Source: Gemmatimonadaceae bacterium (lineage in GTDB: Bacteria > Gemmatimonadota > Gemmatimonadetes > Gemmatimonadales > Gemmatimonadaceae). From it: a stretch of DNA of 64,000 bases. Under the pieces are notes generated by a model. The model was given only the letters and a program-made list of their open reading frames with translations, searched no databases and had not been told where the DNA came from. The position numbers and the translations under genes are program-made. This document shows, one piece after another, positions 14,144 to 32,362 of this stretch. How positions within the stretch are numbered: position 1 is the first letter of the stretch; each line of letters opens with the position of its first letter. Location: assembly GCA_025934775.1 (NCBI GenBank), contig JAICWO010000007.1, positions 1 through 64,000 on the forward strand, read 5' to 3'.

Positions 14144-14156
14144 AGCAGTCGTTAAG

Positions 14157-14205
14157 AAGGCGGTCGGCAGGTCCCAGTAGGGACCTCGCCGACCGCCTTT
14201 TGTGT
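14157..14205 (+). terminator. Rho-independent terminator after clpC
   Basis: AAGGCGGTCGGC (14157-14168) pairs with GCCGACCGCCTT (14188-14199), with an inner GGTCCC/GGGACC stem and an AGTA loop. A TTTT run follows. It closes the lol-mcsA-mcsB-clpC transcript only 20 bases before the bamA start. Confidence 0.88.
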
Positions 14206-14210
14206 ATATT
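14204..14210 (+). promoter_or_regulatory. Possible -10 element of bamA
   Basis: TATATT (14205-14210) ends 8 bases before the bamA ATG. If used as a -10, transcription would start next to the ATG, giving a leaderless or near-leaderless mRNA. No clear -35 is seen because the upstream bases belong to the terminator stem. The assignment is tentative. Confidence 0.35.
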
Positions 14211-14218
14211 TCCGGACT

Positions 14219-16654
14219 ATGCGACAGACGCGTTTCGTGCTCGCAGCCTTTGGGCTCGCGATGGCGGCGACCACCGCGCACGCCCAGCAAGAGGCCAACA
14301 TCGGCCCGTGCGCCACGCCCGATAGCGTGGCATTCCGTGGTCTTCCGCCGGACGCCGCGCAACGCGGCCTCACCGACGACGTCCTGAGGGCCGACGTCGG
14401 GATCACGCCCAAGACGGCGATCAACCAACGGACGCTGATCCGCGCGATTCGCGATCTGTACGCGACCAATCAATTCGAGTCGAACATTCGGACGAGCTGC
14501 GAGCTGGTCAGCGGCAAATCCGTCCTCATTTTCAACGTGCAAGTCCGCCCGGTCCTGAGCGACATCAAAGTGACGGGCGCCGACCGCGTGTCACCGAGCC
14601 AGGTGAAGGACCGGGTCGACCTCCTGATCGGCAAGCCCATCGATCCCGCGCAGGTCGCGAAAGACGTGGCGCGCATCGATTCGTTGTATCAGGCCGAAGG
14701 CTACTACCTTGCCAAGATCACCGTCGACACGGTGAAGGATCCGATCAACAAGCAAGCGACGACGCTCGAGTTCCACGTCGACGAAGGGCGGCGGCTCGCG
14801 ATCTCGGGCGTCGAGATCGTGGGCAACAAGGCGCTCTCGGCGAAGGAGATCGTCCACGCGATCGCGACGAAGCCCGAGGGGTTCTTCTGGTGGCGCAACG
14901 GCGAGTTCGATCAGGACAAGTACAACGAGGATCTGTCGAAGACGATCCCCGAGCTGTACGCCTCGCACGGCTTCATCGACATGCAAGTCGTGAAGGACAC
15001 GTTGATCATCGACCGCACGAAGGGCAAAGCGCTCGTGCGTCTCACGGTGAACGAAGGGCCGCAGTATCGCATCGGCGACTTCGAGGTCAACGGCGCGAAG
15101 CATTTCTCCAATGAACAGATCTCGAAGTTCTATCCGTTCGGCGAGCACCAGACGAGCGTCACTGAAGCGGTGAAGGGGTTGATCGGGCGCGGCACGGGCA
15201 ACAGCGACGTCTTCAACGAGAGCGCATGGAACGACGCGACCGGCAAAGTTTCTGACGCATACGCCAACGACGGCTACATTCGCGCCTCGGTCAACCCGAT
15301 CGTGGATCGTCGGCGCGTCGGGCCCGATTCGGTGCCGACGGTGGATCTGCGCTGGGAGATCGACGAGCAGACGCCGGCGATCGTGAACCGTGTCGACATC
15401 GTCGGCAACGACGTCACGGACGAGACGTGCATCCGCGACCAGCTCACGATCCTGCCGGGCGAGGTGTTCAATCGCGATCTGCTCATTCAGAGCTATCGCA
15501 ACATTGCGAACCTGGGCTTCTTCGATCAGGACATGCCGCCCCCGACGACCAACCCGGCGAACGATCAGGGCGACATCGACCTCATTTTCCACGTGAAGGA
15601 AAAGCGCACCGGCAACGTCAACTTTGGCGCGTCGGTGGGCCAGGGCACGGGTGTGGGCGGGTTCATCGGCTTCGATCAGCCCAACCTGTTCGGCGAGTGC
15701 AAGAAGGGCTCGTTCCAGTGGCAGTTCGGGCAGTACATCCACGATCTGAGCCTCAGCTACACCGATCCGCGCATCAAGCAGTCGAACGTGTCGGGAACGG
15801 TGACGGCGTACAACCAGTCATCGCGGTTCATCATTCGCGACATCGGGCAATCCAAGACGAGCGGCGGTCAGCTCCAATTCGGCTTCCCGGTTCGTGATTC
15901 ACGCTGGACGCGATTCTACGTGAGCTACGGCGGCGAGCGCGTCAGCTACGGCGGTGACGGTCTCGTCTCGACGATCAACTGCAACGGCTGCTTCCGCTCG
16001 ACGCTCGGGTTCACGCTCGACCACGACACCAGGCAGGGCATTCCATTCCCGTACGCCGGCGTGCACGAGGATGTGAGCTTGCAGATGAACGGCGGCCCGC
16101 TCGGCGGCAGCGCGTCGTTCCAACGGCTCACGACCGAGATGCGCGGGTATACGCCGCTCGCGACGTTTGGCTCCGGGCCGCAGCCGATGGTGCTGCTGGC
16201 GGGACTCAGCCTTCGTGCCGGCGCGTTGTTCGGCGATCCCGGACCGTTCTTCGTTTCGCAGGCATTCTCGCTCGGCGGCGTGCAGTACGGCGAGCCGCTC
16301 CGCGGGTATGAGGAGTTCTCGATCACGCCGCGCGGCTACATCCCGAACGCCGATCAATTCCAGGCGCAGCGGAGCTCGTTCGGCAACTCGTTCTTCACGA
16401 GCACGGTGGAGATGGGCCTTCGCGTGAGCCAGCAGTTGTATCTGGACGGCTTCTACGACGCGGGCAACCTGTACGAGCGGCCGCAGGACTTCGATCCCAC
16501 CAGGTTGTTCCGTGGTGCCGGATTCGGCGCGGCGCTCGTCACTCCTCTCGGTCCGCTCGGCGTCGATCTCGGTTACGGGTTCGATCGGGTCGACCAGTTC
16601 GGCCACAAGGACCCCAAGTGGCAGGTTCATTTCAAGTTCGGTCAGATCTTCTAA
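14219..16654 (+). CDS. bamA: Outer membrane protein assembly factor BamA
   Basis: BamA folds and inserts beta-barrel proteins into the outer membrane. The 811-residue product has a signal peptide ending at AHAQ near 22, a series of POTRA domains to about residue 450, and an Omp85 barrel ending in FKFGQIF. POTRA hallmarks such as LYQAEGYYLAKITV and LYASHGFIDMQV are visible. The barrel shows the late GPLGVDLGYGFDR segment expected for Omp85 proteins. Skp follows immediately, then the lipid A genes, an order shared with many Gram-negatives (bamA-skp-lpxD-fabZ-lpxA-lpxB). Confidence 0.96.
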   Translation: MRQTRFVLAAFGLAMAATTAHAQQEANIGPCATPDSVAFRGLPPDAAQRGLTDDVLRADVGITPKTAINQRTLIRAIRDLYATNQFESNIRTSCELVSGKSVLIFNVQVRPVLSDIKVTGADRVSPSQVKDRVDLLIGKPIDPAQVAKDVARIDSLYQAEGYYLAKITVDTVKDPINKQATTLEFHVDEGRRLAISGVEIVGNKALSAKEIVHAIATKPEGFFWWRNGEFDQDKYNEDLSKTIPELYASHGFIDMQVVKDTLIIDRTKGKALVRLTVNEGPQYRIGDFEVNGAKHFSNEQISKFYPFGEHQTSVTEAVKGLIGRGTGNSDVFNESAWNDATGKVSDAYANDGYIRASVNPIVDRRRVGPDSVPTVDLRWEIDEQTPAIVNRVDIVGNDVTDETCIRDQLTILPGEVFNRDLLIQSYRNIANLGFFDQDMPPPTTNPANDQGDIDLIFHVKEKRTGNVNFGASVGQGTGVGGFIGFDQPNLFGECKKGSFQWQFGQYIHDLSLSYTDPRIKQSNVSGTVTAYNQSSRFIIRDIGQSKTSGGQLQFGFPVRDSRWTRFYVSYGGERVSYGGDGLVSTINCNGCFRSTLGFTLDHDTRQGIPFPYAGVHEDVSLQMNGGPLGGSASFQRLTTEMRGYTPLATFGSGPQPMVLLAGLSLRAGALFGDPGPFFVSQAFSLGGVQYGEPLRGYEEFSITPRGYIPNADQFQAQRSSFGNSFFTSTVEMGLRVSQQLYLDGFYDAGNLYERPQDFDPTRLFRGAGFGAALVTPLGPLGVDLGYGFDRVDQFGHKDPKWQVHFKFGQIF

Positions 16655-27645: not shown

Positions 27646-29273
27646 GCGCGGTCGCAGCACCGGGCGACTCGGAGACAAGTCCGGCGAGCCCACCACCGCC
27701 GCGACGAAGCGGCGCCGTGCTCATTGCGGCGGGCATCTTCCTCTCGAAGATTCTCGGGCTCGTCCGCACGCACTTTCTGACCGGCGCGCTCGGCCAATCA
27801 ATTGCTGCCGACGCGTGGGTGTACTCGACGCGCATTCCCAATATGCTGAACAACCTGTTCGGCGAGGGATCGCTCTCGGCGTCGTTCATTCCGGTTTACG
27901 CCGGGCTCGTGCGCGACGGCGACGACGTCGAGGCGGGCCGCACGGCGGGCGCGGTGGCGGCCGCGCTCGCGCTCATCGTCGCGGTGGGGGTGGCGCTCGG
28001 CGTCGCGTTCGCAGCTCCCATCACGACGGTGATCGCGAGCGGGCTCAACACACCCGACAAAGAGGCGACGCGCGCGCTCACGATCGAGCTCACGCGGATT
28101 CTCTTTCCCGCGGGCGGCCTGTTCGTCATGTCCGCCTGGTGCCTCGGCATTCTCAACAGCCACCGCCGGTTCTTCATGTCGTACGCGGTGCCGGCGATCT
28201 GGAACGTCGTGATCATCGCCGCGCTGCTCATGTATCGCCACGATCCGAATCTGGATCAGATCGTCGAGCGCGTGTCCTGGGCTTATGTGCTCGGCGCCGC
28301 GCTGATGTTCCTCGTCCAGCTTCCGCGCGTGCTCGGCCTCGTCAAGCGTCTTCACCTCACACTCGACTTTTCGCACGGCCCGACGCAGGTGGTCCTGCGC
28401 AACGCGATTCCGGCGTTCATCGGGCGCGGAGTGAATCAGATCAGCGGATTCATCGATCTCTGGATCGCGAGCTATCTCCCCAACACACTGGCGGGGCTGC
28501 TCGGCTATTCACAGAACTTGTATATGCTGCCCGTGAGCTTGTTCGGCATGTCGATCTCAGCGGCGGAGCTCGCGGAGATGTCCCATGTGAGCGGGGCAGC
28601 GGGCGAGGAGGCGTACGCGGCCACGCTGCGGGCGCGCCTCGATGCCGGCCTCCGGCGGATCGCGTTCCTCGTGGTCCCGTCGGCGATGGCGTTCTTTGCG
28701 ATCGGCGGCGTGATCGTCGCGCTGATCTTTCAAAACGGCCGCTTTGGCCGCGCACAGAGCGAGCTGACGTGGAGCATCGTTGCCGGGTCCGGCGTGGGCC
28801 TTCTCGCGGCGACTATGGGACGACTCTACTCGTCGACGTACTACGTGCTGCGCGATACACGCACGCCGCTCGTGTTCGCCGCTATCCGCGTGGCGCTGAC
28901 GGGTGTGCTCGGCTGGATTCTGGCCGTGTGGTTTCCGCGCTGGTTCAGCTACGACCCCAAGTGGGGCGCGGCCGGGCTCACCGCATCCGCCGGTATGGCG
29001 GCGTGGGTCGAGTTCACGCTCCTGCGGCGCACGCTGAACAAGCGCATTGGACGCACCGGCGTGCCGCAGTCGCTCGTGGCGCTGCTCTGGTTGTCCGCGG
29101 GCGTTTCGGCGGCAGCCGCGTGGGGCGCCAAGCTGCTGCTGCCAGGGACGCATCCCATCTACACCGGCGCCGCCGTCGTCGCCGTCTACGGGATCGTTTA
29201 CTTCGCGGTGACCGGAGCGTTCAAGGTTCCCGAATCCCGCCAGATGTTCGCGCAGGTGCGCCGCTTCATATAG
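27642..29273 (+). CDS. murJ: Lipid II flippase MurJ
   Basis: MurJ flips lipid II across the inner membrane for peptidoglycan synthesis. The 543-residue product is a polytopic MOP-superfamily protein with about 14 hydrophobic segments. The hallmark N-terminal ILGLVRTHFLTGALG and NLFGEGSLSASFIPVY are visible, as is GRGVNQISGFIDLW around 265-278. ATG 27642 overlaps bshC by 4 bases. The gene is followed by uvrC after 36 bases. Confidence 0.93.
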   Translation: MSAVAAPGDSETSPASPPPPRRSGAVLIAAGIFLSKILGLVRTHFLTGALGQSIAADAWVYSTRIPNMLNNLFGEGSLSASFIPVYAGLVRDGDDVEAGRTAGAVAAALALIVAVGVALGVAFAAPITTVIASGLNTPDKEATRALTIELTRILFPAGGLFVMSAWCLGILNSHRRFFMSYAVPAIWNVVIIAALLMYRHDPNLDQIVERVSWAYVLGAALMFLVQLPRVLGLVKRLHLTLDFSHGPTQVVLRNAIPAFIGRGVNQISGFIDLWIASYLPNTLAGLLGYSQNLYMLPVSLFGMSISAAELAEMSHVSGAAGEEAYAATLRARLDAGLRRIAFLVVPSAMAFFAIGGVIVALIFQNGRFGRAQSELTWSIVAGSGVGLLAATMGRLYSSTYYVLRDTRTPLVFAAIRVALTGVLGWILAVWFPRWFSYDPKWGAAGLTASAGMAAWVEFTLLRRTLNKRIGRTGVPQSLVALLWLSAGVSAAAAWGAKLLLPGTHPIYTGAAVVAVYGIVYFAVTGAFKVPESRQMFAQVRRFI

Positions 29274-29274
29274 C

Positions 29275-29309
29275 GAGGCAGGTGCGCCGCGGTGGGGTAT
29301 AATTCACCC
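29275..29309 (+). promoter_or_regulatory. Promoter giving a likely leaderless uvrC mRNA
   Basis: A perfect TATAAT (29298-29303) lies six bases before the uvrC ATG (29310). Transcription would start at or within a base of the ATG. A weak -35 (GAGGCA, 29275-29280) has a 17-base spacer. No Shine-Dalgarno sequence precedes the ATG. An in-frame GTG at 29292 would start upstream of the -10 box and is not favoured. Confidence 0.6.
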
Positions 29310-31220
29310 ATGGCAGTGCCCGAGTCCGTCCTCGAGAAAATTCCGCATCTTCCGGAGTCGCCCGGGGTCTATCTCTGGCGCGATCGGGACGGCACCGTCC
29401 TCTACGTGGGCAAGGCCAAACGGCTGCGCTCGCGAGTGCGCAGCTACGTCACGAGCGATCACGCGGAGAGCATCAAGACGCGCGCGCTGATGCTCCAGGT
29501 CGCCGCCCTCGAGACGATCGTCGTGCCGAGCGAAGCGCACGCGCTCATCCTCGAGGCCAATCTCATCAAGGAGTACCACCCGAAGTACAACATCGCGCTC
29601 CGCGACGACAAATCGTATCCGTACATCAAGGTCACGGTACAGGAGCCGTTTCCGCGCGTGTACGTGACGCGGCACCTCGTGAACGACGGCAGCCGATACT
29701 TTGGTCCATACACCGATGTCGGCGCCATGCGCCGCGCGCTCAATGTCGTGCGGCGAGTGTTCACCGTACGCTCGTGCAACTACGACCTGCCGGCCGTCGC
29801 GCCCGAACGCCCGTGCCTCGACTACTTCATCAAGCGCTGCAAAGCCCCGTGCGTGCTCGCGCAATCGGCTGACGAATACCGCCAGATGATCAACGAGGTG
29901 CTCGCGTTCCTCGACGGCCGGACGAACGAGGTGATCGGCCGCGTGCGCGACCGCATGGAGCTCGCCGCCGAGTCGCTCGACTTCGAGCGTGCCGCCGAGC
30001 TGCGCGATGCGTTGCTGCACCTCGAGCGCATGGAGGAGCCCACCGTCGTGCTCGAGGTGGAGGGCGGCGATCGGGACGTGCTCGGCTACGCGCGCGACGG
30101 CGACGATTCGGTCGTCGCATTGATGCGCATTCGCGGCGGCAAGCTGCTCGCGCGCGAGCATCACTATCTCGAGAATCTCGAGGAAGAGAGCGATGCCGCC
30201 GCGCTGCAAGCGTATCTCGTGAGCAAGTACCTGCCGCTCGAGGACCGCGCGAGCGAGGTCCTGATTCCGTTCGAGCCCGAAGAGCGCGAGCTCGTCGAAG
30301 CGTCGCTCGAGCGTACGAAGCTGCACGCGCCGCAGCGCGGCCCCAAGCGCGAGCTCGTCGACCTCGCGACCCAGAACGCGCGACACCTCCTGGAGGAGCT
30401 GCGCCTCACCGGCGAAGAAGCCGACGAGCGCGCCGGCGATCCGATCTACGAGCTCCAGCGCCAGCTCGGTCTGCAGAAGGTGCCGCGCTCGATCGTCTGT
30501 TTCGACATCTCGCATGCGCAGGGGACGGACACCGTCGCCTCGTGCGTCTGGTTTCAGAACGGCCGTCCGTGTCGCGCCGAATACCGCAAGTTCAAGGTGA
30601 AGAGCGTCGAGGGCATCGACGACTTCGCGTCGATGAACGAGGTGGTGGGACGCTATTTCGTGCGCCGCGTCGAGGAAGACCGACCGCTGCCGGACCTCGT
30701 GATGATCGACGGCGGCAAGGGCCAGCTCAACGCGGCGCACGCCGCGCTCGATGCCATGGGACTCGGCGCGCTGCCGATGATCAGCCTCGCCAAGCGCGAA
30801 GAGGAAATCTTCCTCCTCGGCCGGAGCGAGTCGATCCGGCTCTCGCGCCGCTCGCCGGCGCTCCGCGTGCTGCAGCAGGCGCGCGACGAGGCGCACCGAT
30901 TCGCCATCACCTTCCAACGCAAGCGCCGCACGGTGCGCACGGTCACCTCCGAGCTGCTCCGCATCCCGGGAATCGGCGAATCCAAGCGGCGGCAATTGCT
31001 CGAGAGCTTCGGCAGCTTGCAGGGCGTGCGCGATGCCTCGCTCGAGGCGATTGCCGCGCTTCCGGGCTTTGGCCGGAAGACCGCCGAGCGTATTCTGCAA
31101 GGGCTGCGCGCGACCGCCCCCACCGCAGCTCCGTCGTCCACCGCGTCCGAACCGGCCGAACCGGCGGGCGCACCCGCGGGATCTGAATCTTCCTCTGACT
31201 CTTCCACCGAACTCACGTGA
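29310..31220 (+). CDS. uvrC: Excinuclease ABC subunit C (UvrC)
   Basis: UvrC makes the dual incisions in nucleotide excision repair. From ATG 29310 the product has 636 residues. An N-terminal GIY-YIG nuclease (SPGVYLWRDRDGTVLYVGKA), a cysteine-containing segment (CNYDLPAV to CKAPC), a UVR motif (SLDFERAAELRDALLHLE), an RNase H-like endonuclease (CFDISHAQGTDTVAS, MIDGGKGQLNAA) and tandem HhH motifs (LRIPGIGESKRRQLLE) follow in order. A Pro/Ser-rich acidic tail ends the protein. It overlaps the next gene by 4 bases. Confidence 0.95.
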   Translation: MAVPESVLEKIPHLPESPGVYLWRDRDGTVLYVGKAKRLRSRVRSYVTSDHAESIKTRALMLQVAALETIVVPSEAHALILEANLIKEYHPKYNIALRDDKSYPYIKVTVQEPFPRVYVTRHLVNDGSRYFGPYTDVGAMRRALNVVRRVFTVRSCNYDLPAVAPERPCLDYFIKRCKAPCVLAQSADEYRQMINEVLAFLDGRTNEVIGRVRDRMELAAESLDFERAAELRDALLHLERMEEPTVVLEVEGGDRDVLGYARDGDDSVVALMRIRGGKLLAREHHYLENLEEESDAAALQAYLVSKYLPLEDRASEVLIPFEPEERELVEASLERTKLHAPQRGPKRELVDLATQNARHLLEELRLTGEEADERAGDPIYELQRQLGLQKVPRSIVCFDISHAQGTDTVASCVWFQNGRPCRAEYRKFKVKSVEGIDDFASMNEVVGRYFVRRVEEDRPLPDLVMIDGGKGQLNAAHAALDAMGLGALPMISLAKREEEIFLLGRSESIRLSRRSPALRVLQQARDEAHRFAITFQRKRRTVRTVTSELLRIPGIGESKRRQLLESFGSLQGVRDASLEAIAALPGFGRKTAERILQGLRATAPTAAPSSTASEPAEPAGAPAGSESSSDSSTELT

Positions 31221-32362
31221 GCACCTGGCATCTCGAATGCTCGGCGTGCGACGTCCGCGAAGCGGGCGATACGCGCGCCACGGTCTGCCCGAAATGCGGA
31301 CAGCCGTTTCTCGTCATTTATGATTCTCTAAAGGCATCGCGCGACGCGCTGACGCCGCGCTGGGACATGTGGCGCTACGCGCCGGTCCTGCCGCTCCGTG
31401 ACGGCGAGGCTCCCGTCTCGCTCGGCGAAGGGCTCACCCCGATGCACGAGCTGCCCACGCTCGCCAAGGAAGTCGGCGTCGCGCGCCTCTGGGTGAAGGA
31501 CGAAGGGCTGAATCCCACCGCGTCGTTCAAGGCGCGCGGCATGAGCGCCGCCGTCACGCGGGCACGCGGGCTCGGAGTGCCCGGTCTCGTCGTGCCCACC
31601 GCCGGCAATGCCGGCGCCGCGCTCACCGCGTACGGCGCCGCGGCTGGAATCCCGGTGCGCGTCTACGCGCCCGAGACGACGCCCAAGCCGATTCTCGATA
31701 CGATCCGCACCTTGGGCGCCGATCTCCAGCTCGTCGCGGGACACATTGGCGACGCCGGCAAGCAGGCCCGCGGCTTCTCGAACGAGTCCGGCTATTTCGA
31801 CGTCTCCACGCTGCGCGAGCCGTATCGCATCGAAGGGAAGAAGACGATGGGTTTGGAGCTCGCCGAGCAGCTCGGATGGAAATTGCCGACGCACATCATT
31901 TACCCGACGGGCGGCGGAACGGGCCTCATCGGCATGTGGAAAGTCTTCGGCGAAATGCGCGACTGGGGTTGGCTCCCGAAGGACGTGACGATGCCGCACA
32001 TGGTCGTCGCGCAAGCGTCTGGCTGCGCGCCGATCGTGCGCGCGTTCAAAGAGGGCAAGGATCACGCGACGCCGTGGGAGAATCCACAGACGCACGCGAG
32101 CGGTCTCCGCGTGCCGGGGCCTCTGGGCGACCGCCTCATCCTCCGCGCGCTTCGGGAGAGCAACGGCGATGCGCACGCGGTGAGCGAAGACACGATTCGC
32201 GCCGCGACGCTGCGTCTCTCGCGCTCGAGTGGCGTTGATGCCGCGCCCGAGGGTGGGTGCGCGCTCGCCGTCGTCGAGGAGCTCGTCGCCGCCGGCCGGA
32301 TCCCGAAGGATGCCGAGGTGCTCGTGTTCAACACGGGCAGCGGCGCATCATATCGCTTTTGA
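31217..32362 (+). CDS. thrC: Threonine synthase with N-terminal zinc ribbon
   Basis: The PLP enzyme converts O-phosphohomoserine to threonine. The 381-residue product starts with a zinc-ribbon-like CSAC...CPKC (8-27). The PLP core has the lysine in TASFKARGM, then TAGNAGAALTAYGAAAG and the phosphate-binding YPTGGGTGLIGMW. This architecture fits the threonine-synthase group often found in archaea and Deinococcus-like bacteria. Cysteate synthase is a less likely relative. The start (GTG) overlaps uvrC by 4 bases. Confidence 0.88.
   Translation: MSTWHLECSACDVREAGDTRATVCPKCGQPFLVIYDSLKASRDALTPRWDMWRYAPVLPLRDGEAPVSLGEGLTPMHELPTLAKEVGVARLWVKDEGLNPTASFKARGMSAAVTRARGLGVPGLVVPTAGNAGAALTAYGAAAGIPVRVYAPETTPKPILDTIRTLGADLQLVAGHIGDAGKQARGFSNESGYFDVSTLREPYRIEGKKTMGLELAEQLGWKLPTHIIYPTGGGTGLIGMWKVFGEMRDWGWLPKDVTMPHMVVAQASGCAPIVRAFKEGKDHATPWENPQTHASGLRVPGPLGDRLILRALRESNGDAHAVSEDTIRAATLRLSRSSGVDAAPEGGCALAVVEELVAAGRIPKDAEVLVFNTGSGASYRF

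Follow-up and report, generated by a model that had tools for sequence, protein, structure and literature searches.

A -10 element next to the start codon predicts a leaderless uvrC mRNA in a Gemmatimonadaceae bacterium

The window (the whole stretch of DNA analyzed, 64,000 nucleotides from the start of contig JAICWO010000007.1, assembly GCA_025934775.1) carries on its forward strand an open reading frame of 636 amino acids (29310..31220) that we identified as uvrC from its Pfam domains (GIY-YIG, UVR, UvrC RNase H and HHH), with an ATG start codon at 29310-29312. Among named records, the nearest relatives of this UvrC come from Gemmatimonadaceae metagenome assemblies. The 5' neighbour of uvrC on the same strand is murJ (27717..29273, gene call and Pfam), leaving a gap of 36 bases between the two genes (29274..29309), and the uvrC stop codon overlaps by 4 bases a gene encoding a PALP-family PLP enzyme (31217..32362, forward strand, gene call and Pfam), which probably belongs to the uvrC transcription unit. 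The initial annotation had reported a TATAAT ending six bases before the uvrC ATG. This hexamer is indeed present at 29298..29303 on the forward strand, where it constitutes the -10 element of a predicted uvrC promoter, followed by the six-base spacer TCACCC (29304..29309) and directly preceded by GG (29296..29297, positions -14/-13), a pair of bases that also stands out in the family alignment described below. Scanning the murJ-uvrC gap for terminators and promoters yielded no terminator-like match and no full two-hexamer promoter-like match, and the promoter scan found no TTGACA-like -35 element at about 16-18 bases. A perfect 13-base direct repeat, with one copy in the 3' end of murJ (29252-29264) and the other in the gap (29278-29290), may represent a small duplication that set the length of the gap.

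The absence of a Shine-Dalgarno (SD) sequence before the ATG, also noted initially, holds with one qualification. By inspection, none of the 4-mers AGGA, GGAG and GAGG occurs at SD distance 5' of the uvrC ATG, and a mixture model gave uvrC an SD posterior of 0.002. The sequence GGTGGGG (29291-29297) is part of a stretch with moderate pairing to the anti-SD (-6.7 kcal/mol), which is stronger than the mean of the genome-wide class of -10-adjacent starts defined below (-1.76 kcal/mol), but it is badly spaced, ending 12 bases before the ATG. Since the 16S gene had no match in the assembly, the anti-SD used throughout is the class consensus available from PMC10783764 rather than that of the organism itself. 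Searching the genome assembly (4.88 Mb in 47 contigs) for TATAAT-N6-ATG returned 3 occurrences, against 1 for the backward control pattern; two of the 3 (uvrC and C35:79078) are located at called gene starts, and the third falls within the body of a called gene. The -10 element of sigma-70 promoters normally ends at position -7. Counted from there, A29310, the first base of the ATG, becomes position +1, and the base before it is a C. As no other purine occurs 4-8 bases past the -10 element, transcription should begin at the ATG, and we accordingly place the predicted start site at position 29310 on the forward strand.

A similar arrangement had been pointed out at bamA (14219..16654, forward strand, 811 amino acids, Pfam POTRA and Omp85), a protein with matches in all 61 of 61 genomes. 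We confirmed that a -10-like TATATT (14205..14210, forward strand) ends eight bases before the bamA ATG at 14219. The gap between the upstream Clp ATPase gene and bamA also contains a near-perfect hairpin of 47 bases (14155..14201, forward strand, -42.4 kcal/mol, z -9.1), which ends 3 bases before the -10-like hexamer. This hairpin, not flagged by a simple terminator scan, may terminate transcription of the Clp ATPase gene, in which case almost no room is left for a bamA leader.

To assess how widespread this arrangement is in the genome, we used gene calls from a codon-model caller that is blind to upstream motifs, covering 949 genes in a sample of 1.203 Mb. Genes separated from the preceding gene by 25 bases or more were defined as leading (n=616) and compared with operon-internal genes (n=313) and with 1620 internal in-frame ATGs as a control. 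TAnnnT was found 4-9 bases before the start of 65/616 leading genes, 8/313 operon-internal genes (p 7e-6) and 12/1620 internal ATGs (p 4e-26). Counts among leading genes were 12, 24, 15 and 7 at spacers of 5, 6, 7 and 8 bases respectively, with 0-9 at every other distance up to 39, so that the class peaks at the spacing that a leaderless start needs. At spacers of 5-8 bases we counted 56/616 leading genes, against a mean of 16.4 and a maximum of 28 in 300 shuffles. The mixture model assigned a posterior above 0.9 to 63/616 leading genes (7-10/616 in three shuffles and 2/1620 in the control), and ranked bamA 2nd and uvrC 4th among the 616. TAnnnT also occurs further upstream of leading genes (8-25 in each four-base window at spacers of 16 and above; 30/616 at spacers 30-35), which is not negligible, and only a part of the 65/616 is therefore excess. 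Since TAnnnT at such larger distances is also expected of ordinary promoters, we estimate the class at ~6-10% of leading genes. The initial suggestion that leaderless mRNAs may be common in this organism thus stands as a sequence signature, with "common" taken to mean this share. No -35 signal was detected in the class, with a mean of 2.66 matches against 2.55 in shuffles and a perfect TTGACA in 1/56. Upstream of C16:109376, C16:103011, C16:100245, C12:93862, C6:282600 and C35:111617 we observed CT-rich stretches resembling CACTCTC/CTCTCCA repeats, some of which mimic TAnnnT before an ATG and which may form an intergenic repeat family.

SD-like 4-mers showed the reverse distribution, being present before 142/616 leading genes, 116/313 operon-internal genes and 136/1620 control ATGs. 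Only 1/65 of the genes with a -10 motif also had an SD-like 4-mer, a figure to which steric overlap contributes, and mean pairing with the anti-SD was -1.76 kcal/mol in the -10 class against -3.22 kcal/mol in other leading genes. The SD share estimated by the mixture model was discarded: its SD component had drifted to a weak motif (1282/1620 controls scoring above 0.5), and exact 4-mer counts were used instead.

To follow the uvrC element among relatives, we collected 60 uvrC 5' ends, made up of 31 Gemmatimonadota loci and 29 loci marked as belonging to the same family, and dropped 6 duplicates, leaving 54 distinct ends. Several of the 31 Gemmatimonadota records are labelled by phylum only, and on the UvrC tree these group with the family. 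The same-family loci were taken from the best 30 of 43 family genomes, own included, and 20 genomes out of 78 were chosen outside the family. Loci L004, L005 and L011 (short contigs) and L001-L003 were left out of the comparison, and the short row L076 was omitted from the tree. With a search window of 3-9 bases and a start codon near the N-terminus, TAnnnT was found 5-8 bases 5' of the start in 38/54 family ends, against a mean of 2.6 and a maximum of 8 in 500 shuffles. TAnnnT being the search rule itself, fairer evidence comes from the positions that this rule leaves free. In the alignment of 39 family sequences with the motif, own included, the fifth base of the hexamer is A or T in 39/39, the third is T in 29/39, and each of the two bases 5' of the hexamer is G in 30/39. 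The position ranking next lies 14 bases 5' of the hexamer, a G/C column of 0.87 bits, and no T- or A-rich -35 element stands out 5' of the GG.

The motif is absent from 16/54 family relatives, including one clade of 8 that lacks it entirely, and it occurs in 1/20 of the phylum members chosen outside the family. In a quickly built UvrC tree, six changes are needed to account for the distribution of the motif, whereas shuffles require about 25. The simplest reading is that the motif was gained near the base of the family and lost several times; that the gain was single is not proven by the tree. The sister pair L036 and L037 has no adjacent -10 element at uvrC, and in L037 a TAATAT lies further upstream, with GGAGGA between it and the ATG, as though the gene had changed from leaderless to leadered. 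When a cruder rule was applied to named family loci, the motif was found in 12/28 uvrC starts against 4/86, a lower share than 38/54 because this rule takes starts from the longest ORF.

The excess at leading genes was also examined in other Gemmatimonadota genomes. In a second genome of the family (G024), the motif precedes 21/193 leading genes and 3/526 control positions, with a borderline difference between leading and operon-internal genes (p 0.048). In G018, a genome from the clade that lacks the uvrC motif, the corresponding counts are 5/114 and 3/287 (p 0.045). Random stretches from five relatives, once pooled, gave 39/626 leading against 8/325 internal genes (p 0.01). Small samples from other families gave 7/81 against 8/300 in f2 (p 0.02), with no significant excess in f5 (2/122) and f9 (4/116).

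Taken as a prediction, the leaderless uvrC mRNA proposed in the initial annotation is supported by the conservation of the element in the family, by the existence of a genome-wide class at the required spacing and by the bias of this class towards leading genes. We consider it likely that uvrC is expressed as a leaderless mRNA from its own housekeeping promoter, as one member of a class comprising ~6-10% of leading genes. The promoter would lie inside the 36-base gap after murJ and consist of a housekeeping (RpoD-type) -10 element, TATAAT, with GG just 5' of it and no recognisable -35 element. RNA polymerase would initiate at the A of the uvrC ATG, or within 1-2 bases of it, to produce an mRNA without a 5' leader, whose 5'-terminal AUG would be engaged directly by the ribosome (70S, or 30S with initiator tRNA) without SD contact. 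The same arrangement would serve the other members of the class. For uvrC, recognition of this element by the polymerase, the precise start site and the leaderless mode of translation are inferred from the sequence.

An AT-rich hexamer before a start codon might instead act in translation, as an unstructured or S1-binding site, and S1 binding is considered as an alternative for such biases in PMC5397173. If the hexamer acted in translation, first and later cistrons should carry it equally often, whereas in this genome its frequency in leading genes is four times that in operon-internal ones. This favours a promoter, and the five pooled relatives agree. The -10 letter preferences at a sharp spacing also speak against a role in translation. 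Counts from the 20 uvrC neighbourhoods outside the family run in the wrong direction for a promoter, with the motif before 12/132 operon-internal and 3/131 leading genes (p 0.03). However, nine of these 12 cases (L174, L175, L176, L178, L182, L183, L188, L189 and L190) look like one orthologous gene, encoding a small membrane protein of about 92-105 amino acids and lying ~2.6-2.8 kb 5' of uvrC in families f2, f3 and f5, so that the contrary result is mostly one locus counted repeatedly. The ATG of this gene is preceded at 5-7 bases by TAGnnT, in which the TAG mostly seems to serve as stop codon for the preceding gene. This resembles another conserved start of the leaderless type, set within a closely packed gene cluster, in which case a gene counted as "operon-internal" from its distance may still have a promoter of its own. 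These cases show that the -10-like motif is not confined to genes called leading. Altogether, we regard a purely translational role of the uvrC hexamer as very unlikely.

The remaining alternatives concern the origin of the transcript and the position of the start codon. Because 36 bases separate uvrC from the end of murJ, which has the same orientation, and no terminator was found in between, a leadered read-through mRNA could coexist with the leaderless one. That uvrC is mainly expressed in this way, as a leadered cistron of the murJ transcript with the -10 element as a minor or unused internal promoter, is unlikely in our view: the ATG has no well-spaced SD, and a hexamer kept at a fixed distance in 38/54 relatives, while the region 5' of it is mostly not kept, does not behave as an unused element. 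The TATAAT would fall within the coding region of a longer mRNA if uvrC started at an in-frame GTG 5' of it (29292..29294, forward strand), which is preceded by an SD-like AGGTG (29280..29284, forward strand) within a stretch scoring -10.0 kcal/mol to the anti-SD. We find this highly improbable, since the gene caller, blind to upstream motifs, picked 29310, and no in-frame start was found 5' of the -10 element in 27/38 motif-bearing relatives (in one of these 27, L030, the contig ends 40 bases upstream). A chance match is conceivable for a pattern as short as TAnnnT, which precedes 12/1620 internal ATGs at 4-9 bases, but the conservation in relatives and the genome-wide enrichment disfavour it so strongly that its probability is negligible.

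The leaderless mode is known in other phyla, and its predicted use in Gemmatimonadota would be an extension of this known mode. Actinobacterial leaderless transcripts resemble that predicted for uvrC, with a 5'-terminal start codon, an adjoining -10 element and a high-GC genome, and represent a higher proportion than in the present genome. Leaderless transcripts of Mycobacterium are mentioned in PMC9581028. A survey of 953 bacterial genomes reports leaderless genes in 207 of them and TANNNT as the bacterial signal (Zheng 2011, PMC3160421), and its main text gave no match for "Gemmatimonad". In Deinococcus, TANNNT about 6-7 bp upstream of the start has been tested by experiment, and leaderless genes make up about 30% of ORFs (PMC12340547). 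Deinococcus-Thermus and the present genome have in common TAnnnT ~6-7 bases before the start, its use as an alternative to SD, no need for a -35 element and a positional peak (PMC12340547; PMC3160421); they differ in phylum, in share (~30% of ORFs against ~6-10% of leading genes) and in the type of evidence, experimental there and sequence here. In C. jejuni, dRNA-seq revealed leaderless mRNAs with the pattern gnTAnaAT-N5-9-ATG, which GGTATAAT-N6-ATG of uvrC fits (PMC3847290). According to the same paper, the only gene predicted to be leaderless in every species of Epsilonproteobacteria that holds it is always located upstream of uvrC (PMC3847290). There, unlike here, the leaderless cistron precedes uvrC rather than being uvrC itself, and in C. 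jejuni starts were measured by dRNA-seq instead of predicted.

Our literature searches on leaderless mRNA, transcription starts and SD sequences in Gemmatimonadota showed no report of leaderless genes for this phylum, although the GeneMarkS-2 survey, which classed 5,007 genomes according to PMC9581028, may cover it. The prediction would extend the -10-adjacent leaderless mode to this poorly studied soil phylum. Gene finders expecting an SD may misplace starts in its genomes, and uvrC offers a conserved, named predicted promoter that is open to direct testing.

We also compared uvrC starts in other phyla, using rough gene calls and lineages grouped by record names. The motif was present at 16/49 uvrC starts, against 5.9 expected from shuffles, and at 17/48 against 22/196 neighbouring ORFs. 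The signal was strongest in one Neomarinimicrobiota-like group (6/6, with 0/22 in neighbouring leading ORFs), Pyrinomonadaceae (3/3, with 1/9) and Rubrobacter (2/2, with 0/8). After collapsing the data to 30 lineages outside the phylum, uvrC scored 8.3/30 against 14/122 pooled neighbouring ORFs (p 0.04, marginal), and averaging the neighbours by lineage as well gave 5.4/28. It is conceivable, though we hold it to be rather doubtful on these sequence comparisons, that uvrC became leaderless repeatedly and independently in distant phyla, such that nucleotide excision repair would still be made when normal initiation is impaired. The cases behind this idea also include the 38/54 motif-bearing starts in Gemmatimonadaceae and the Epsilonproteobacteria gene located upstream of uvrC (PMC3847290). 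If true, this would link DNA repair to translation working under stress. Our literature searches combining leaderless genes and uvrC returned nothing further on point beyond PMC3847290.

A possible bias of the -10 class towards DNA replication and repair was assessed from Pfam names. For this, 42 proteins were scanned out of the 50 best of 76 rows; the other eight comprised two that spanned stretch borders, one with a spacer of 11 and five unscanned ones. They were compared with 40 controls, i.e. four fifths of 50 proteins drawn from 491 motif-free leading genes of 100-1200 amino acids. Replication or repair proteins accounted for 6/42 members of the -10 class and 0/40 controls (p 0.026), namely UvrC, UvrD-like, DnaE, pol III delta, delta' and RadA-like proteins. 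The idea of such a bias came from the first 22 proteins scanned (5/22), the second 20 alone giving 1/20 (p 0.33), and the bias is not established. A second gene resembling the N-terminal part of UvrC (37% identity over residues 13-270) is located elsewhere in the assembly (G000:C6:149031-149843), and is possibly Cho-like.
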